From: a virus
Reading direction: 5' to 3' (one strand)
DNA length: 42,136 nt
Virus record (IMG/VR): IMGVR_UViG_3300042923_000543
Span: 1-42,136 of that record
Shown here: piece by piece, positions 9,491 to 28,408 of the stretch
Position numbering within the stretch: the stretch's first letter is position 1
Layout of the letters: each line of letters starts with the position of its first letter
Position numbers and translations under genes: made by a program
The notes under the pieces: generated by a model
What the model was told of the DNA's origin: nothing
Databases searched by the model: none
Seen by the model: the letters and a program-made list of their open reading frames with translations, nothing else

Positions 9491-10753
9491 CTAGTTAGCT
9501 CCACTATTGAAAGTGGAGGCAGTTTCTACACGGATCATAAAGGTCTGTGTTAAGATTTCTGCGGTCTTTGTGGACTTCCATCCGCAAGTTGCCTTCTGGT
9601 TTAATGGATCAGATGTTCCACCGGAACCAAGCTGCTTAATAATATTTTCTAAGCCGCCACCTTCGATCATGGTTACACCGTAAGCATTTGAACCTAATAC
9701 CAATGTAGAGTATACATCACAACCTGCTGCTCCTGCCTCACCAGGATAGATTACAGTGTCAACAGCAACTGTCAAGGAAGTTGTTAAGGTAATTGTTGCC
9801 GATCCGGCTGCAGCTGCACTTGCGCTTTCAATCTCATATTGAGACGTACCGATTAATACCTTACGACCTACTAATGCAGTTGCATCAGCTGCGGTGATTA
9901 ATTCCTTAACTGCGATTGTATCTGCTGCAACCGTAATAGCTGTCTTTACAGATAAATTTCTAGCACCAGCGGTTAAGTCTGCTGCATGAAAGATTTTTGA
10001 CTCTGTGGTCTCAACATAACGTACCCCACCGATCTCTCCAATTTCTCCTCTAAATATCTTATCCGATGTGGTGTACTTTTGAATATCTACCCACTTATCA
10101 GATTGCATGATATCATAGGAAACATCCGGATGGATGATTGCTACATAGGATCCGTTAATCTTAGGTGCATTTTGTACCTTAAGATATCTAGCGGCTTTAT
10201 TGGAGCCAACAACCGTCATCTTATCATTTGTTTGGTCAAGGTCATATCTGTGGGATACTGTGCCATCACCATACTGTACAGAGGTACCTGCATTAATAAC
10301 CTCCCTGGTAACTGTATCGAGAGTACGACCTGACTGATCGCCTAACAGAGTAAGAGACTCAACAATATTGTTGTCGATGGATGTAAGCAACAACATATCA
10401 GAAAGCGTGATGTAATCACCATACTGAGATACCGTTGCGGTTACCGTTGTTACATTAAGAGGCTTGCCATCCGGTACTACAGCCTCAACAAGAGGAGTAG
10501 TTGCCTTGGGAAGCGGAGAATAACGTCTAAACTCTACTGTCTTACCGCCATTCTTTGGAATTGGCTTCTTCTGGCCGAACTGATCATGAACGAGATTTGG
10601 AGTTGCATTCTTGATCAGCACCTTATCATAAAATGTCTTCATCTCCGGAGAAAGATCATTTCCGGCTGTTGCTGATGTAGTTGTATTCACAACCTGATCA
10701 AATTTGGTCAGGTTCAATGAGAAATAAATCTTATTTGTTAATAATTCCTTCAT
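9491..10753 (-). CDS. Major capsid protein, N4-gp56 family
   Basis: A 420-residue protein with start ATG 10753 behind AGGGGG. Residues 37-85 carry the family signature, including FYDKVLIKNATPNLVHDQFG and a GGKTVEFRRYSPLPKA block. The remainder is the HK97-type shell fold with an inserted alanine/threonine-rich beta domain around residues 250-330. Residues 13-19 read LNLTKFD. The same seven residues stand near the N-terminus of the scaffold. They resemble the LNLQFFA-type site cut by Prp protease, and a Prp-like gene lies three genes upstream. The first 19 or so residues are therefore probably removed during assembly (inference). Scaffold upstream and head protein downstream fit a head operon. 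Confidence 0.93.
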   Translation of the reverse strand: MKELLTNKIYFSLNLTKFDQVVNTTTSATAGNDLSPEMKTFYDKVLIKNATPNLVHDQFGQKKPIPKNGGKTVEFRRYSPLPKATTPLVEAVVPDGKPLNVTTVTATVSQYGDYITLSDMLLLTSIDNNIVESLTLLGDQSGRTLDTVTREVINAGTSVQYGDGTVSHRYDLDQTNDKMTVVGSNKAARYLKVQNAPKINGSYVAIIHPDVSYDIMQSDKWVDIQKYTTSDKIFRGEIGEIGGVRYVETTESKIFHAADLTAGARNLSVKTAITVAADTIAVKELITAADATALVGRKVLIGTSQYEIESASAAAAGSATITLTTSLTVAVDTVIYPGEAGAAGCDVYSTLVLGSNAYGVTMIEGGGLENIIKQLGSGGTSDPLNQKATCGWKSTKTAEILTQTFMIRVETASTFNSGAN

Positions 10754-10789: not shown

Positions 10790-11704
10790 TTATAGATTAA
10801 TCGTTTCCCCCATACTGACACGTCTTAATACTTCCTCTAAGTCCTTGTCAGTCCATTTACTAGGATCATTTTTTACGATAACACCAGCTGAGGAATTAGC
10901 ACCGTTCTCTGAAGGTCTTGACTTACGGGATTGAATATTGTTGACAATCTCTTCTTTCCCTTTTTGCTCTGCCTGTTGTGCTACTGTGGGAAGGATCTTA
11001 TCAAAATTAACTGCGTGATAAGCTGCTTTCACATCTCCTGTAGCTTGCAATACCTGAATAAATTGTTTACCTGACTGAGGATTTCTTATCTCGGCATCGA
11101 GATTGAAATCGGGATACTGGCTCTTCATCGAATTGGCTTGTCCAAGCCAATTGTTATAAGTCTCCTGTGCTCCCCGTCTCTGCTCTTCCGACTCTCTTTG
11201 CTTACGGAAATACTCATTCTCAGCTTCAATTCTCTTCTGGTATTTATACTGTTCGACAGTCAAACCTTCTGTCATTGCTTCCTGCTCCCAAAGGGAGTTG
11301 TCATCCTCAATTGCCTTGGCCAGTTTTGCTGCATCACCATCATTAATGCCGTACCGTTGACTGAGTACATCCATAATGGGCTTTAAGTCGTTAACCTGCT
11401 TTTCAAGAGTTTTAGTCTCTTTGAAACGGTTATTGATAATTCCATGGATTCTCTCATCGAATAAATCTTTGTAATCACCCATGATCATCTTCTCGAAATC
11501 AGCTTTTCTAGCTTCAGGATCCGGTGTTGCTGGTGGTTGTTCCTTGGCGGCCGGAACTTCTTCTTCGGCTGATACTTTACCGTATACAACCTTAGCTTCG
11601 CCCTGTCCTTCCTCGGCGGCAGGAAGAGTATTTCCATCGCCCGTGGGTGCTGCTGCCTCACCATCAAATTTAGTGAGGTTCAGCGGATATAAAAACATTC
11701 TCAT
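10790..11704 (-). CDS. Capsid scaffolding protein
   Basis: A 304-residue protein. Start ATG 11704 (MRMFLYPLNLTKFD) is chosen for its AAGGGG site; a start at 11740 has none. It is acidic and alanine/proline-rich up to residue 65. It is then a long helical, coiled-coil protein to about residue 230 (LEKQVNDLKP, KYQKRIEAENEYFRKQRE), with a short basic/serine-rich linker and a helical C-terminus that typically contacts the capsid. It lies immediately before the capsid gene. Residues 8-14 are LNLTKFD, shared with the capsid N-terminus and likely a Prp-type cleavage site. Confidence 0.88.
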   Translation of the reverse strand: MRMFLYPLNLTKFDGEAAAPTGDGNTLPAAEEGQGEAKVVYGKVSAEEEVPAAKEQPPATPDPEARKADFEKMIMGDYKDLFDERIHGIINNRFKETKTLEKQVNDLKPIMDVLSQRYGINDGDAAKLAKAIEDDNSLWEQEAMTEGLTVEQYKYQKRIEAENEYFRKQRESEEQRRGAQETYNNWLGQANSMKSQYPDFNLDAEIRNPQSGKQFIQVLQATGDVKAAYHAVNFDKILPTVAQQAEQKGKEEIVNNIQSRKSRPSENGANSSAGVIVKNDPSKWTDKDLEEVLRRVSMGETINL

Positions 11705-11808
11705 AGGTTTTACCCCTTTCCTTATCATGGTCTTTCCCAAGAGTCAGGCATATATTGCCATCTGATAATGTTATAGCACAAAGAGTAAATAAATTTCTCC
11801 CCTATGCT

Positions 11809-12321
11809 TTATTCTGCTAATACCCAATCCGTTGCAAGTACATCATTGATACTTGGAACCCACATTGCATGAGATCCATTGACCATCTTAATTTGCAAGT
11901 ATGGCTCACATCTGAACAAATCACCTTCATTCATTCCCCATGCATTGGCTGTCTGTGCATTACAAGGGATACCGTTTGGATATCCTTTCTGGTAGACTAC
12001 GAACATACCCTTACCATTCCATCCCTCACGCATAACCTTCCTGCCATTTTTCAGATGCCTTAAAGCATCTCCAAATCCAAATGTTAGAACATATTCACCA
12101 TTATAAGCAGGGCTGTTATGATAATCAGCTATTTCCCACTCATTGCTGATGATGTTCCCTAAAGTGTAAAGTACATCTTCAGTTTCCCTAATATCGATAA
12201 TTCTTCCATCCTTGCAATGCATTTTAATAGATCCATCTTCGATGCACCAATAACCACTCCATGAAGGTAATTTCACCTTTGCACCTTTTTTCATAAACTC
12301 CATAGCCTGTTCAAATTTCAT
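11809..12321 (-). CDS. Tandem Tad2-like (DUF2829) protein, candidate anti-Thoeris sponge
   Basis: A 170-residue protein with start ATG 12321 behind AAAGGAG. The C-terminal half (residues 80-170) matches the DUF2829/Tad2-like pattern: FGDALRHLKNGRKVMREGWN, then GKGMFVVY, then PYLQIKMVNGSHAMWVPS and a DVLATDWVLAE end. The N-terminal half (residues 1-65) is a second, divergent copy: FEQAMEFMKKGAKVKLPSWSG ending in NEWEIAD. Known: Tad2 proteins bind and sequester the cyclic ADP-ribose-type signal made by Thoeris ThsB. Inferred: this protein may do the same, with one or two altered ligand pockets. Its place between protease and scaffold genes is unusual, because counter-defence genes are usually early. 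It could instead be a structural protein reusing the fold. Confidence 0.72.
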   Translation of the reverse strand: MKFEQAMEFMKKGAKVKLPSWSGYWCIEDGSIKMHCKDGRIIDIRETEDVLYTLGNIISNEWEIADYHNSPAYNGEYVLTFGFGDALRHLKNGRKVMREGWNGKGMFVVYQKGYPNGIPCNAQTANAWGMNEGDLFRCEPYLQIKMVNGSHAMWVPSINDVLATDWVLAE

Positions 12322-12354: not shown

Positions 12355-12666
12355 TTACCACTCTACTGATACATTATCCGGATATTGATCTGCTAAGAGA
12401 ACATAACCCAACATAATTGTATTAATAATGATCCTTGCTTCCTCTGCTGTCTGAGCAGTCGGCACAATGCTGATATGTAATTCTCCATCCTCATATGTAT
12501 TGACGTGGCTTCTTTCCGCGTCTAAGTCAGTGAGGGCATTAATCAGCGTATAACCTAACACGGATGCAGCACTGCACACTACATCCATCCCCGGCTTATA
12601 TCCGGAATGCCCTACAATATCAATCGTATATTCTTTTCCATCACGAACACATTTTATATTAGTCAT
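12355..12666 (-). CDS. prp: Prp-like cysteine protease (head maturation)
   Basis: A 103-residue protein with start ATG 12666 behind TAGGAG. It has the Prp (YsxB) fold signature: the GHSGY block gives His20 and DVVCSAASVLGY gives Cys31. The spacing matches the His-Cys pair of the host enzyme that trims ribosomal protein L27. Known: host Prp also trims scaffold and capsid proteins of some staphylococcal phages at LNLQFFA-like sites. Here the phage carries its own copy within the head operon. Its likely targets are the LNLTKFD motifs in the scaffold and capsid two and three genes downstream. Specificity for LNLTKFD is an inference. Confidence 0.88.
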   Translation of the reverse strand: MTNIKCVRDGKEYTIDIVGHSGYKPGMDVVCSAASVLGYTLINALTDLDAERSHVNTYEDGELHISIVPTAQTAEEARIIINTIMLGYVLLADQYPDNVSVEW

Positions 12667-12674
12667 ATATACTC

Positions 12675-14579
12675 CTATCTTGGACTAGCTACGTTAGCAG
12701 CTGTCTGTTTCGCATTGGTTACTATTCCACCGCTCCCGGCTTGTACCGCTCTACCTAGAATGTTGGTCTGCATCGTACCACCTATGTCAGCTTGTGGCAT
12801 TTGTACTCCATATTGCTGAGCTAACTGAGGCATTATAGAAGATCCCGTCATTGCATCGACAATTTGCGCCAGTTGTAAGGAGGTTTGAACCAGAGTGCTA
12901 TTTTGAGATATTTTACTAACAATTCCGTTCTTTCCATCAAATGACATCATATCAAGTGCCATGAGTGCCTGATCTGCTAGCTGTGGATTGAAGAAACCTG
13001 CGGAGTATAATTCTTTGGCCATCTCATTCATTGCAATTGTGGAGAACGGAGATGCTTTTTGTGCCCGGATTTCAATATCAAATATCGGTCTACGGTAGAT
13101 TGTCTCGCCTCCCGAACCTAATTGAGGTAAATCCTGAATTCCTTGGCTGGTGTATGTTACATACTCATCATTTCCGTTCGGGCCAGTGATACGGAACTTC
13201 CTAGGCTCAGTATAAAACTGTCTTATCAGCTCCAAACAAAGAATATTGATTTCCTCAAATGCTCTGTAGGATGCCTTTATCATATCCCTGCTTCCCTTAC
13301 TCCCTGCTTCCTGTAATGCGGCAATCGCAGAAGCTGCTGTAACACCCGAGGCTGTACTTCCTTGTGAAAAATCTCGATTTCCGGAGGTCTCCTTAAGCTC
13401 TTCAATTTTGTTCGTTCTGTGGTTGATGATATAAGGATCAAGAGGCTTAGTCTCATAAATCTTATAATTTTCCTCCTTAAACCCACCTTTTGTAACGTGA
13501 ATAATCCTTTTGGATGGATCCATTAACTCATCTTCGTTAATTCCGACATCATCTCGCAACATAACCCTAGATACACCTGCTTCAAAGGCATTTATCATGA
13601 TAATCTGGTCTAACTTATCGATGTAAATCTGAGGATCCTTCATTACATCGACATGGCCAAAACCTCCCGGGGTATCTTCTTCAGGGAACAATACATCGAA
13701 TGTAAATGGATAACGTGCATGATCATACAATCCTTTATCATGCATCTCCGGATCATTCTCTGTGCTTTCCAGTACCACTCCATTACAGAATTTACAGAAG
13801 TGAAGAATGTCCTTGATTGAGCCGTCCTCTGCTTCGATTGATTGCTTGTAATACCAATCGATAACAGCTGATTTGTTGGAAGTATCGATTTCATCATTAT
13901 GCTCGAATTGTCCTATCATTGACTCAGGAGCACTGCCCAACTTATCTTTGAGTTGAGGATACTTTGCAAGTAACTTGTCATTATTCAACAATGCAACCAG
14001 AAAAACATGGCTTGACTCCTGAATATCCTCAATGCCCGGCTCCCAGAATAAGTTAAGAGGGTTAATCTTCTTGATCACGATATCCCCTAATCCATTTTCT
14101 AATGAGTTATCCCAAAAGGTGCCATATATTCCAAGACCGTTCTTTAACTTCTTCCAACCGTTTTGTGAGTAGGTTGTCTCAAATTTTGCCCTTTTGAGAA
14201 TTACTGGAAGAATAGCTGATATTGTTTCAGCTTCTTTCTTATCTGACTCTTCCCTTGGTAACACCTGAGGCTCAGGAAAGTTATCCATGATGTCAGCATG
14301 TTTGTTATTCAACGAATTAAATAACCAAGCCGATGTGGGCTCAGGCTTCTTTCCTTCCGACTCTGCCCTAATTTGGTCCCAATGGCGCATCCGGTACCAC
14401 TTATCATTTTCAATAATTCTTTTATCAAAATTCGCTTTGCCGGCCTTATAATCCTCCAATATTCTTGCAGCCTCACTAATTTTTAATTCATCTACCGGTA
14501 GTTTTACCGGTGCCGGCTTCTGACTTTCCGGTACAAATGTCTGAGTTAACTTTTCTCTTACTCTTTCTATAACACCCAT
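12675..14579 (-). CDS. Portal protein
   Basis: A 634-residue protein with start ATG 14579 behind AAGGGAGA. It follows large terminase directly and precedes the head protease. Residues 60-130 (WYRMRHWDQIRAE, TSAWLFNSLNNKHADIMDNF), the central GTFWDN and PLNLFWEPG segments, and the helical region with TASGVTAASAIAALQEAG are typical of podovirus portals in Firmicutes phages. The C-terminal 90 residues are Q/G/A-rich and may form the barrel or a disordered tail. It forms the dodecameric DNA channel at the capsid vertex. Confidence 0.9.
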   Translation of the reverse strand: MGVIERVREKLTQTFVPESQKPAPVKLPVDELKISEAARILEDYKAGKANFDKRIIENDKWYRMRHWDQIRAESEGKKPEPTSAWLFNSLNNKHADIMDNFPEPQVLPREESDKKEAETISAILPVILKRAKFETTYSQNGWKKLKNGLGIYGTFWDNSLENGLGDIVIKKINPLNLFWEPGIEDIQESSHVFLVALLNNDKLLAKYPQLKDKLGSAPESMIGQFEHNDEIDTSNKSAVIDWYYKQSIEAEDGSIKDILHFCKFCNGVVLESTENDPEMHDKGLYDHARYPFTFDVLFPEEDTPGGFGHVDVMKDPQIYIDKLDQIIMINAFEAGVSRVMLRDDVGINEDELMDPSKRIIHVTKGGFKEENYKIYETKPLDPYIINHRTNKIEELKETSGNRDFSQGSTASGVTAASAIAALQEAGSKGSRDMIKASYRAFEEINILCLELIRQFYTEPRKFRITGPNGNDEYVTYTSQGIQDLPQLGSGGETIYRRPIFDIEIRAQKASPFSTIAMNEMAKELYSAGFFNPQLADQALMALDMMSFDGKNGIVSKISQNSTLVQTSLQLAQIVDAMTGSSIMPQLAQQYGVQMPQADIGGTMQTNILGRAVQAGSGGIVTNAKQTAANVASPR

Positions 14580-23964: not shown

Positions 23965-25608
23965 CTATGCAAATCTAAGTTGCTGACGACTATCATCAAT
24001 CTGTATATTACCGATACGCTCACCCACCCTGAGATAATAACAATTTGCTTCAGCGAGAACCTTAGACATTGTAGGTACCACCGAATTTCCTATTCTTTTC
24101 ACCTGCTCACTCTTCGGGTATGGTTTACCATTCTTCATAGTAAAGTTGATGATATAATCTTTGGGGAATTCTTGCCCTAGTTTTAGTTCTTCAGCATCCA
24201 GCATCCTGAGATAGATATCAAGTATCGCATATTCATTTCCAAGTACGGTAATAAGGGCAAATCTGTCTTTGGTCACGACAGTGTGTAATGGATCATTAAG
24301 AGACTGCCCTATCCCACATCCGTAATATTCCATGATGAACTGCGATACCCATGTACATTTTTGAGCTGTCTCTGCATCTACTCCATTAGCTATTAGTTGT
24401 TTATAATCAACTGCAAGTATTGAGACTTGTCCGAAATGGCCTGCGCTAGTTGTAATTGTGTGTATCGGCTCGAATAATGATTGACCTATTCCCGTTTTAT
24501 AAAACTTTGTAAGAAAAGCAGCTACTAATGCATACCTTGGTGATGTATCAATAGTCATAATTGGATCCTTGACTGATTGTCCTCTAACTCCACTCTTTGA
24601 TGTTTCAGAATGATACTGAATTAGCATAGGCGATATCAGACAATGCTCATTTTTAGTGACTACCGTTGACATAGGATCTGTGACTGATCGATTTCTATCT
24701 TTAGAAAATCCCGTTTGTCCTATCTGCATGATGTAAGGAGTAACAACTCCATACCCATGTTTTTGTGTAATGGTTGTTATTGGCTCGTGAATGCTTTGAC
24801 CTCTGAAATTATCGCCACCATGATTAACTTGCACTATAAATGGTTCCTTACTGTTGAAAACAAACTTGTCCATACCTGCGCCAATACGGTTCATTGTTTT
24901 ATCTGCCAACGGCTTCTTGCGCCCAAATATGGACTTACCAAGATCATTAAAATTTATATAATCCGCTATTGGCTCCCATTTCTTCAATCCATTGGTACCA
25001 TATCTGTTATGCGTAGGCACTGGCCATACTATTTGCTTATCATCAGATCGGAATACTGCATACCAACGCTTTCTTGTAGTGTGTGCTCCATAATCAGCTG
25101 CTACAAGCTCTTTGCATTCAAACCGAAATCCAAGGTTTTTCATAAGCTTTATAAACTTTTTGTAATACTCACCTTTTCGCTCTTTGATTGGCTTATCATT
25201 CTCATCGAGAGGCCCCCAGTCTTGGATTTCTGCTACATTCTCCATCATTACAACTTCAGGTAAATAACCTGTGACCTCTAAAATCTGCTTACACAGTCGG
25301 TAGACTCCCATTGGTAATATACGCAATCCTCTTTTGATTGGTTTATCACCCTTCGCTCGTGAGTGACTTGTGCAATCCGGAGAAGCCCAAATCATTCTTA
25401 CTCTTTGACCTTTTTTCAGATACTTTCGCAAATCGACTTTAAGCATATCTTCCGTTAGATGCAACGTATCTGGATGGTTTTTCATATGCATTGCAATAGC
25501 ATCCGGATCATGATTAATTGCTATATCAATAGATCTACCAAGAGCCATTTCTATTCCAACGCTTGCCCCACCTCCGCCTGCAAAGCAATCAATGATAATA
25601 TCCTTCAT
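23965..25608 (-). CDS. DNA (cytosine-5) methyltransferase with repeat-rich target domain
   Basis: A 547-residue protein; start ATG 25608 overlaps the stop of the upstream gene by four bases. Motif I is DCFAGGGGAS (7-16). Motif IV is SPDCTSHSRAKG with catalytic Cys79 (PDC instead of PPC). Motif VI is MMENV with Glu123. A motif VIII-like stretch is TTRKRWYAVF. The C-terminal GNSVVP is motif X. Between motifs VIII and IX, about 240 residues hold five degenerate repeats of the type GQSxxDPxxTIxTxxxxxLV, which form the target-recognition region. It probably methylates cytosine in phage DNA against host restriction. It forms a unit with the helicase-methyltransferase gene upstream. Confidence 0.92.
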   Translation of the reverse strand: MKDIIIDCFAGGGGASVGIEMALGRSIDIAINHDPDAIAMHMKNHPDTLHLTEDMLKVDLRKYLKKGQRVRMIWASPDCTSHSRAKGDKPIKRGLRILPMGVYRLCKQILEVTGYLPEVVMMENVAEIQDWGPLDENDKPIKERKGEYYKKFIKLMKNLGFRFECKELVAADYGAHTTRKRWYAVFRSDDKQIVWPVPTHNRYGTNGLKKWEPIADYINFNDLGKSIFGRKKPLADKTMNRIGAGMDKFVFNSKEPFIVQVNHGGDNFRGQSIHEPITTITQKHGYGVVTPYIMQIGQTGFSKDRNRSVTDPMSTVVTKNEHCLISPMLIQYHSETSKSGVRGQSVKDPIMTIDTSPRYALVAAFLTKFYKTGIGQSLFEPIHTITTSAGHFGQVSILAVDYKQLIANGVDAETAQKCTWVSQFIMEYYGCGIGQSLNDPLHTVVTKDRFALITVLGNEYAILDIYLRMLDAEELKLGQEFPKDYIINFTMKNGKPYPKSEQVKRIGNSVVPTMSKVLAEANCYYLRVGERIGNIQIDDSRQQLRFA

Positions 25609-28157
25609 ACTACCTCCTTATCTATCTCAAGAAAGTCAAATAGTGTAGGTGTCTCAATCTGCTCCTCTGCTCCCTTGCAGTAGCCAACACCATCCCTGAA
25701 GTAATCAGAATTGAGTTCTATACCGTATCCGCGTCTTCCATTCTCAATCGCTACCTTAGGTACCGTCATTAATCCGGCGAACATATCAAGTACAGTATCA
25801 CCCTCATTCGAATACCTGTTAATGATCCGCTCCACAATATCAATTTGCAATGGACATACATGCATCTGTAATCTTCTCCGACTCTGGTCTGTATTGAGCG
25901 TTTTCATGCGGTTGATATCATCCCATACCTCATCTGACCAACTGCCAGGTGCTACTACCATGAAGGTTGCTGGAAGCTTGTCCATGGTATCTAATTCCTT
26001 AGCTAGCTGCACATGCTCGTGATAGCTATAGATACTGTTCTTTGAGTACTTACGATATACGTTCTGCAAATTATCAACTGATACACTTGATAACTCATCC
26101 TTACTTACAAGACGATTACCTGAACTTCTCCAGAATGCATGAGCGTCTATCTGCCATTGCGCTCTGGTATAGTCTTCCTTAGTCTTAGTCACCGGATCAT
26201 CTGCATAGGCGGTACTGGTGTCTGATGGAAGCTTGCGGAAGAGAAGAATATATTCCGGGCAACCCACACCCATCTTCGAACCATCCTTACACTGCTCTGT
26301 CCATCCAAGGCGGTAAGTCTGGTTATTCTCTCTTACTACATCCGTGATAACCGTAATCATGCCAAAGTAATGAAATCCATGCTTTATGTAATGATTTATG
26401 CAAATTGCATGGAATGGCTCGATTGTCGGCATTCCTGTGCCGGTTGCATTACCGAATAATACACGGTCCTTAACATGAATTGCCATCACCCTGCCGGGCT
26501 TAAGGATTCTGAAGAGCTCCGGAGTTAGGAAGTCCATCTGCTCGAAGAACATGTCCGTATCTTTGTTATGCCCGAAGTCGTTATAATTTGCAGAATACTC
26601 ATAATGATTACCGAATGGGATTGAGGTATGTATCAAGCCTATGCTGTTACTCTGCATCCTCTTTGTTGCTTCCACACAATCATCATTAACCGCTGTGAAA
26701 TGTTTCCCTTCAACCTTCACTGTCTCAACTCCCATCTTTCTCTTTAATCGTTCGGTTTTATTTGTTGCAGATAATCCATACTTCTTCACAATTGCGATCA
26801 TTTTATTAACCATATAGTTATGATCTGTCCACTTTCTCAATAAGGCTTCTTTGATCTGCCGTTCATTCTCCATGTAAATGATGTCGATAACAACATTTTT
26901 CTTCTGGAGAAAGCGGTAAATCCGGTGAACTGCCTGTATAAAATCATTAAATTCATAATCGATACCAAGGAAGATGGCTCTATGACAATGCTTCTGAAAG
27001 TTACATCCGGATCCTGATAACTCTTTCTTTGTGGCGAAATACTTAATCTTACCATTGGAGAAGTCGATTACCCTCTTTTCCCGTATGTCATAATCCTGAT
27101 TTCCGAAGATATCCACTGCTGCCGGTATGGCTTTCTTTATGGCCAGACGTTCAGCTTCAAGATCATGCCATAAAATGTAGCAGTCATTCGGGCTCTCATT
27201 GAGTAATTCAGCCATTTTTGAGACTCTGGCATCAATGCTCTCACGCTTAATTTGAGCTTCATCCTGAAGTGATACTGCTGCCTCCTGAAATAACATAACC
27301 TGACCGTTCTTATCAGTCTTATCTCCATAGCTGATTGGCAGCTCATGCCACCTTACTTCCATTGGAGGTAGATCATATCCTTCGTCTGAGTAATCCGGAT
27401 TGAGATCCGATGGCATAGTTACAAATAATGCCCAGCTACTCACCCATAACCAGAATTCATCCTCCATATTAGGATATAGAGTTAGGTTATTGGCTTTCGC
27501 GCTGTCTCTCTGGAAGAACCTTGTTAAAGATTGTCCGGTGTCCATAATCTCCAGATACCCGGCATAATGGATTAGCTCTTTATATCGGTTCGGTGATGGA
27601 GTAGCCGTGGCTACCAGTTTATATTTAACTCCCTTGAATTTATCGAGGAAGGTCTGGTATGTCTTAGATCCGAAACTCCGGAGAACAGAGGCTTCATCCA
27701 GTGAAGTTGCGGTGAAGAATGAAGGTTCGATATCTCCATCCCTGACACGTTCATAGTTGGTTATCAAGATATCTCCCGCTGCCTCGTGGACTTCTTGCAT
27801 ATTCCTGACATACTTTGGATGGTCCATGCGAAGTAGCTCAACTGCATCATGAGTGAACTCCTGCTTCACTCCCAGAGGTAAGACAATCAATGCCTTTCCA
27901 CCCTCATGCTTAATAGCCAGCCGGCAGAATTCCAACTCCTGAATGGTCTTACCAAGTCCAAAGCTTTCAAATAGAGCTCTTCGACCGCCCTTTAATGCCC
28001 ACCATACAGCATCCTTCTGGTGAGGCTTCAGGCAGTTTGATATTTCTGATCGGTCAATCTCAATACCACTGTCAGTCGCTATCTCAATTTTGGTATATAG
28101 AAATTCCTCATAGGTCATTATCCTGCCTGCCTTTCTTTTCGCCTGGGTCGTAAACAT
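25605..28157 (-). CDS. Helicase-DNA methyltransferase fusion, 850 aa
   Basis: ATG 28157 overlaps the stop of the preceding gene (TAATG); ATG 28118 is an alternative. Residues 40-430 form an SF2/SNF2-type helicase: motif I SFGLGKT (65-71), motif II LDEAS, motif III TATPSP, and a C-terminal RecA lobe ending at QAVHRIYR (motif VI). Residues 480-850 are an adenine/N4-cytosine methyltransferase in permuted order: motif IV TSIPFGNHYEYS first, then the FAG motif I in VLDMFAGLMTVP near the end. The catalytic motif reads SIPF instead of the usual (D/N/S)PP(Y/F). From memory this variant is shared by phage relatives. Inferred role: modification of phage DNA with translocation. Anti-restriction or a link to replication is possible. 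Confidence 0.88.
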   Translation of the reverse strand: MFTTQAKRKAGRIMTYEEFLYTKIEIATDSGIEIDRSEISNCLKPHQKDAVWWALKGGRRALFESFGLGKTIQELEFCRLAIKHEGGKALIVLPLGVKQEFTHDAVELLRMDHPKYVRNMQEVHEAAGDILITNYERVRDGDIEPSFFTATSLDEASVLRSFGSKTYQTFLDKFKGVKYKLVATATPSPNRYKELIHYAGYLEIMDTGQSLTRFFQRDSAKANNLTLYPNMEDEFWLWVSSWALFVTMPSDLNPDYSDEGYDLPPMEVRWHELPISYGDKTDKNGQVMLFQEAAVSLQDEAQIKRESIDARVSKMAELLNESPNDCYILWHDLEAERLAIKKAIPAAVDIFGNQDYDIREKRVIDFSNGKIKYFATKKELSGSGCNFQKHCHRAIFLGIDYEFNDFIQAVHRIYRFLQKKNVVIDIIYMENERQIKEALLRKWTDHNYMVNKMIAIVKKYGLSATNKTERLKRKMGVETVKVEGKHFTAVNDDCVEATKRMQSNSIGLIHTSIPFGNHYEYSANYNDFGHNKDTDMFFEQMDFLTPELFRILKPGRVMAIHVKDRVLFGNATGTGMPTIEPFHAICINHYIKHGFHYFGMITVITDVVRENNQTYRLGWTEQCKDGSKMGVGCPEYILLFRKLPSDTSTAYADDPVTKTKEDYTRAQWQIDAHAFWRSSGNRLVSKDELSSVSVDNLQNVYRKYSKNSIYSYHEHVQLAKELDTMDKLPATFMVVAPGSWSDEVWDDINRMKTLNTDQSRRRLQMHVCPLQIDIVERIINRYSNEGDTVLDMFAGLMTVPKVAIENGRRGYGIELNSDYFRDGVGYCKGAEEQIETPTLFDFLEIDKEVV

Positions 28158-28408
28158 TATAGGTTCTTCGCATATCGTTCCCTCCATTGTGATTTGTTCT
28201 GAGTAAATGGTATCTTATCGGCTGATACCCTTTCCCATCCTTCCGGCATCTGTATGAGCTCAGGCTTCTCTATTTCAATCAGACTCATAATTGAACCTCT
28301 ATTTCCATCTAATCGGCAGCAAGTATACAGAAAACAAAATTCGCATTGTTCCTGATTACAATTGGTAATTAGAATCTTAGCTTCTTCTTCGCTACAAATT
28401 ATTTTCAT
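28157..28408 (-). CDS. Cysteine-rich small protein, 83 aa
   Basis: ATG 28408 (MKIICSEEEAKILI) lies six bases after GGAGG. It overlaps the end of the RNase H-like gene and the start of the fusion gene. Cysteines cluster at residues 5, 19, 22, 25, 30 and 31 and suggest metal binding. The C-terminal part is amphipathic. Unknown function; the tight coupling suggests an accessory to the neighbouring DNA enzymes. Confidence 0.65.
   Translation of the reverse strand: MKIICSEEEAKILITNCNQEQCEFCFLYTCCRLDGNRGSIMSLIEIEKPELIQMPEGWERVSADKIPFTQNKSQWRERYAKNL

Follow-up and report, generated by a model that had tools for sequence, protein, structure and literature searches.

A two-domain Tad2-like protein encoded among phage head genes as a candidate sponge for Thoeris-type signals

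Tad2 sponges and their relatives

The Tad2 family is already known, as are its fold and its mechanism as a sponge. SPO1 Tad2, SptTad2 and HgmTad2/AcrIIA7 (8smf/8smg, 8wjd, 8kbi-8kbk) are single-domain chains that assemble as homotetramers (PMC12043709), and the titles of their structure entries give gcADPR, cADPR isomers or cGG as ligands. In Tad2, the gcADPR pocket is built from the β1-β2, β3-β4 and β4-α3 loops together with neighbouring elements (PMC12043709). ModTad2, from a prophage of Myroides odoratus (9eib/8v3e), is also a single domain and is bound to His-ADPR in PDB entry 9eib. Two further proteins are relevant for comparison. Acb4 (PF13876) is a family of anti-CBASS sponges with an unrelated fold (PMC11722364), and gp164 of Staphylococcus phage 812 is a stopper decoration (cement) protein of the virion (PMC12886913).

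The DNA considered here (the window) is a virus record of 42,136 bases, and one of the genes in its head region encodes a protein that differs from these Tad2s in having two unequal domains per chain. The fold of SPO1 Tad2, SptTad2 and HgmTad2 is common to both halves. The C-terminal half most closely resembles ModTad2, with 40-49% identity on structural alignment, Z 12.3-12.7 and the motifs RxGWNGKGM and PSxxD in both proteins, but ModTad2 lacks the second, N-terminal Tad2 fold. The same two-domain architecture is found in PHROG 1048, which matches over the full length. Acb4 is absent from the window protein; elsewhere it lies next to Tad2 domains or, in some cases, is fused to them, and chains that combine two sponges thus exist. 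No published account was found of the two-domain form and its recurrent position among head genes, which may be covered by two works cited in PMC13232231, a preprint about the diversity of sponges and a 2026 paper on a TIR-caspase sponge.

The gene and its neighbours

On the minus strand, the genes run in the order terS, terL, portal, Prp, two-domain Tad2-like gene, scaffold-like gene and N4-gp56 capsid (Table 1). A preliminary description of this DNA had reported the open reading frame and placed it within the head gene cluster; its coordinates proved exact, and the Pfam, PHROG and TIGR04387 matches of the neighbours bear out the location. A ribosome-binding site, AAAGGAG, can be read 8 nt 5' of the gene. 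Nothing promoter-like was detected for the gene itself on the minus strand from position 13600 to its start, where promoter-like sites are fewer than in shuffled sequences, though other promoter types remain possible.

Table 1. Features of the Tad2-like gene and its surroundings in the window, and the Acb4-Tad2 fusion genes, the latter with positions on their own loci
Feature	Position	Strand	Remarks
P22-like portal protein	12675..14579	minus	PF16510, phrog_156
Prp-type cysteine protease	12355..12666	minus	PF04327, E 4e-15; in the portal-scaffold gap of relatives too
Two-domain Tad2-like protein, 170 aa	11809..12321	minus	ATG start; PF11195 and phrog_1048
Predicted N-terminal minimal Tad2-fold domain, residues 1-66	12124..12321	minus	AlphaFold2 pLDDT 95.7; Z 9.6 to SPO1 Tad2; kept in 65 relatives
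N-domain β1-β2 loop PSWSGYW, residues 19-25	12247..12267	minus	W21, G23 and W25 invariant
N-domain β4-α3 loop DIRETEDVLYT, residues 43-53	12163..12195	minus	D43, R45, Y52 and T53 nearly invariant
Linker, residues 67-80	12082..12123	minus	Low confidence; block 71-80 pLDDT 64
Predicted C-terminal canonical Tad2 domain, residues 81-170	11812..12081	minus	Matches to solved Tad2s
C-domain β1-β2 loop GWNGKGM, residues 100-106	12004..12024	minus	Canonical pocket motif
C-domain β4-α3 segment WVPSIND, residues 154-160	11842..11862	minus	Canonical pocket motif
Probable head scaffolding protein	10790..11740	minus	phrog_13908 (unnamed); named by position
N4-gp56 family major capsid protein	9491..10753	minus	TIGR04387, E 1.5e-84; phrog_1357
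Acb4-Tad2 fusion, Psychrobacter	L133:5728-6270		
Acb4-Tad2 fusion, Moraxella MAG	L153:5716-6258		
Acb4-Tad2 fusion, Ruminococcus MAG	L170:3180-3728		

The Tad2-like family of Pfam (PF11195) matches two separate stretches of the gene product (E 5.3e-28), scoring 97.8 bits where the cut-off is 25, while the unnamed PHROG 1048 covers residues 1-169 in a single stretch (E 1.1e-43), so the two-domain architecture is already present in PHROGs, without a function attached. Searches of NCBIfam and PADLOC with the gene gave no matches.

Several other genes of the window were noted. The Prp-type protease, which is kept in relatives of the same head, is a candidate prohead or scaffold protease. Loci related to the scaffold gene were sought by exact peptide patterns, and none was found. 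Outside the head region, positions 23965-25608 hold a DNA methyltransferase-like gene that matches the DrmMII/MTase_II models, adjoined at 25605-28187 by a second methyltransferase-like gene, the 860-aa product of which matches adenine methyltransferases over a short stretch close to the C-terminus.

A single chain with two predicted Tad2 folds

By sequence comparison and structure prediction, the gene product is a single chain of two Tad2-fold domains. A full-chain AlphaFold2 model, built from an alignment of 65 two-domain relatives, has a mean pLDDT of 92.6 and a pTM of 0.57. As the latter value from a monomer prediction indicates, the halves are predicted well and their mutual arrangement is not, with the linker weak at about residues 67-80. 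Structural alignment of the C-half with every solved Tad2 gives Z 11.4-12.7 over 86-90 residues, and ModTad2 is its nearest match by sequence (E 1e-17 for residues 81-170).

The N-half is more distant. Modelled by itself, it reaches a pTM of 0.81 at the pLDDT given in Table 1, and it aligns with ten Tad2 entries at Z 8.5-9.6 and rmsd 1.7-2.0 Å over 59-62 residues. In the best of these alignments, 60 of 67 residues are superposed at an rmsd of 1.7 Å, and the next unrelated chain scores only Z 3.8. Scored separately on PF11195, however, the N-half obtains 19.0 bits, and by this score alone it would not be filed as Tad2-like. In addition, a profile comparison between the two domains confines their homology to the first 23 columns. 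These results agree with the preliminary description, which had recognized two units, the second canonical and the first diverged, and had proposed structure prediction against Tad2 as a check; both halves align to solved Tad2s.

Distribution of the two-domain form

More than 300 loci were obtained by scanning IMG/VR and a genome set with one representative per species, and among them profiles built in this analysis identified 96 open reading frames with an N-type domain followed by a C-type domain. After removal of near-copies there were 70 two-domain proteins (an additional N-domain being present in one), 14 N-only proteins (for example L086, L087 and L089) and 177 C-only proteins. Where the hosts of two-domain carriers are named, they are Lachnospiraceae and other Clostridia. 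With 70 non-redundant cases and a PHROG of its own (phrog_1048), the two-domain architecture is widespread among phages and prophages of gut Clostridia.

The pocket loops of the two halves

The ligand pocket was assigned by loop in both halves, following the published review of Tad2 (PMC12043709). In the C-domain, the motifs WNGKG and (A/P)SxxD are present and nearly invariant among the 65 relatives. These canonical motifs are missing from the N-domain, where WxG(Y/F)W and DIRET...YT take their place and are themselves conserved; P19 and Y24 are also nearly invariant across the 65 relatives. The N-domain has no counterparts of the canonical R98, N102, K104, W154, S157 and D160, and as a result it may bind no signal.

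The preliminary description had asked whether the ligand pocket is conserved in either half, and the loops that replace the canonical ones in the N-half are themselves conserved. Mean pairwise identity among the 65 relatives is 55% for the N-half and 51% for the C-half. In the closer pairs, the median dN/dS is about 0.15 for the N-half and 0.06 for the C-half, values that are rough since dS is high and that point to purifying selection on both halves. Within the N-domain, the loops carry 3.32 bits against 2.72 bits in the remainder (p 0.005), with loop limits that were chosen after the alignment had been viewed. Conservation in 65 non-redundant relatives, the dN/dS and the presence of its own conserved loops at the pocket position together indicate that the N-half is not degenerate, and it appears to carry a second, altered candidate pocket. 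Given the canonical motifs in the C-half and a different, strongly conserved set of loops in the N-half, it is plausible that the two-domain chain has an altered ligand range or a second one. Among the 65 relatives, the C-domain occurs in several types behind a fairly constant N-domain, and the type found in the window, with its PNGIPCNAQTANAWGM segment, is a minority type.

Recurrence among head genes

The preliminary description had called placement in a structural operon unusual for an anti-defence gene, and the relatives contradict this, since head genes surround roughly half of the two-domain genes. The tally covers the 60 two-domain loci that have three or more genes on either side, the neighbours being named by PHROGs. 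The gene lies between terL, portal or minor-head genes and scaffold or capsid genes in 23 of these loci, has only the upstream half of the head context in 8, stands beside holin or endolysin (lysis) genes in another 8, and is elsewhere or in unlabelled surroundings in 21. In the head-slot contexts, portals of three types occur together with scaffolds of at least four families and capsids of five. Directly ahead of the scaffold gene are a two-domain gene in Dorea phage DO134P1, an N-only gene in Ruminococcus phage RG-TP1 and a C-only gene in phage SpaA1, while in phiRg507T2_3 the gene sits between holin and endolysin. When the head-slot label is mapped on a tree of 67 two-domain proteins, 20 changes are required; well-supported branches force 15 of these, and the labels cluster no more than shuffled ones. 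By this count, gains or losses of the head slot have been numerous among these genes. The head-slot rate of two-domain genes was also compared with that of single-domain genes (p about 1e-7); this difference is not taken as proof, as the head profiles come mostly from families near two-domain genes, and the hosts of the single-domain set are much more diverse.

For the particular head of the window, 80 relatives of its capsid protein were collected, 37 of which came from loci showing both portal and scaffold genes (one split-portal locus was entered twice in one gap tally). In most of these 37 loci, the portal-scaffold gap is filled by Prp (labelled as such in 20) or by a single gene without a label, a number of these reading as diverged Prp (14). 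Elsewhere it contains different small genes or is empty, and in none of the 37 is it occupied by a Tad2 gene of the N- or C-type. Where Prp is directly followed by the scaffold gene in relatives, -17 to 154 bases separate the two, as against 614 in the window. Judged by this gene content, the Tad2-like gene is an accessory insertion and no conserved member of the head module.

Thoeris-type defences in the hosts of related prophages

Host defences were examined in 20 prophage-bearing genomes (19 with two-domain or truncated two-domain genes and one with a DUF4406-Tad2 gene). One genome (G002, with prophage L092) encodes a macro-domain ThsA and TIR operon that is type II Thoeris-like, another (G012, with prophages L105 and L111) encodes a STALD-type ThsA, and a ThsB-type TIR is present in 8 of the 20. 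Among 200 genomes of one such family, macro-domain ThsA/TIR, STALD ThsA and ThsB-type TIR were found in 10, 5 and 43, respectively. Neither the enrichment of TIR with prophages (8/20 versus 43/200, p 0.09) nor that of ThsA (2/20 versus 15/200, p 0.66) is significant. Thoeris-type defence is thus present in hosts of related prophages, without significant enrichment.

Proposed function and alternatives

In combination, these observations make it probable, if by no means assured, that the protein is an accessory counter-defence factor which combines two Tad2-fold modules, is co-transcribed with the late head genes and acts as an anti-TIR/Thoeris-type signal sponge. Membership of the family makes a sponge likely, and similarity to ModTad2 makes a ligand of the ADP-ribose type likely for the C-half, which would sequester the signal, either His-ADPR or a cADPR isomer, that TIR proteins of the host produce. 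For the N-half, the altered pocket could accommodate a second signal, or the domain could complete a tetramer-like assembly, in which two chains could stand in for the four of the Tad2 tetramer, with N and C pockets mixed or separate. The label "anti-Thoeris" may be too narrow, because some other Tad2s bind cyclic dinucleotides too (PMC12043709).

A phage major head protein activates a staphylococcal and a streptococcal Thoeris system (PMC12578639), and the late, capsid-linked placement of the gene fits this published mode of triggering. The sponge would be made alongside the capsid that triggers Thoeris and would be ready as the alarm is raised; its recurrence in many unrelated gut phages suggests such joint production with the alarm-triggering capsid protein. 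The head slot may thus confer an advantage of timing, although a tolerant insertion site would explain the placement equally. A fuller proposal, in which the N-domain binds a different signal than the C-domain and the gene has repeatedly been put upstream of scaffold and capsid genes for production in step with the trigger, is rather unlikely as a whole. The two-domain form, whose N-domain is divergent and under selection, is a natural test case for how the composition of the pocket relates to ligand range, and for whether a single chain absorbs two alarm molecules. Furthermore, as the capsid protein is a published trigger of Thoeris, the capsid-adjacent slot makes it testable whether counter-defence is timed to the trigger of the defence.

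Two alternatives each come somewhat short of being probable. One holds that only the C-domain binds a signal, and that the N-domain is a structural partner replacing protomers of the Tad2 tetramer. This would account for the missing canonical pocket residues and Pfam-level signature of the N-domain, for its lack of the β2-β5 insertion that has been implicated in cyclic-dinucleotide binding (PMC12043709), for its rarity alone (14 non-redundant cases versus 70 fused) and for its constancy in front of varying C-domain types. Yet the most conserved residues of the N-domain include K17, P19, W21, Y24, W25, D43, R45, Y52 and T53, polar and aromatic residues in ligand-pocket loops that exceed the obvious needs of a mere partner, and N-only proteins do occur. 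The other, of comparable standing, sees in the gene a generic accessory or counter-defence gene that has settled in an insertion-tolerant portal-scaffold gap, its timing with the capsid being meaningless. Unrelated small genes indeed share the region, among them genes for DUF6275 and for a DUF4406 protein resembling nucleoside 2-deoxyribosyltransferase, and phiNM1 has a dispensable small open reading frame, gp41, in this region as well (PMC12578639). Such neutrality is harder to reconcile with recurrence across unrelated heads and with a slot common to two-domain, N-only and single-domain Tad2 genes.

A role in the virion or its assembly, with the Tad2 fold co-opted as part of the head or neck or as an assembly chaperone, had been left open by the preliminary description and is now improbable. 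It would suit a gene that stands among head genes, and there is a resemblance between the C-domain and the N-terminal region of gp164 of phage 812 (8qkh_S; Z 6.2, rmsd 3.2 Å, 66 residues, 18% identity). However, a Z of 6.2 can be reached by unrelated folds and gp164 has no PF11195 match in Pfam; the gene accompanies portals, scaffolds and capsids of several unrelated kinds and is found beside lysis genes too; and the C-half conserves the canonical pocket motifs. The absence of the gene from the slot in 37 relatives of the same head argues most directly against an obligate virion role. Least probable is an anti-CRISPR function, as suggested by the presence of AcrIIA7 in the same family and by the match of the C-domain to 8kbi and 9kzr, which both bear that name. 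The 8kbi sequence has also been solved with 1',2'-cADPR and cGG (8kbj, as HgmTad2, and 8kbk), and these structural data favour the sponge over the AcrIIA7 reading. The fold resemblance of gp164 (L401:23736-24191) remains an observation in its own right, which might mean that a virion protein and a sponge share an ancestor.

Fusions and other neighbours of Tad2 genes

Further combinations of domains were found around related Tad2 genes. A PF13876 gene lies within three genes of a single-domain Tad2 gene in 10 of 177 loci, and three Acb4-Tad2 fusions (Table 1) each contain both Pfam domains above the cut-off; such associations speak for a role in counter-defence. These fusions are candidate double sponges against CBASS and Thoeris, and they point to one-chain sponges against two defence systems. 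Within three genes of the two-domain gene, a DUF4406/nucleoside 2-deoxyribosyltransferase-like gene is found in 10 of 70 loci (for example L279:8233-8556), and a DUF4406-like domain is also fused to a C-type (L092:549-1139) and to an N-type Tad2 domain (L088:3833-4393). This domain is a possible functional partner of Tad2. A gene for DUF6275 (phrog_918) is equally frequent at the same distance (10/70 loci; for example L267:5733-6011).

Tandem Tad2 genes beside two-domain genes, of which 21 cases had appeared, were rejected, because fusions had led single-linkage clustering to group proteins of the DUF4406, Acb4 and phrog_419 types together. Lastly, 54 of the 177 single-domain Tad2 proteins carry an extra N-terminal domain with the pattern GTK..GYLVEY.DGY.SWSPK..FE.AYR (for example L010, L183 and L207), of which the L183 copy has no Pfam match.
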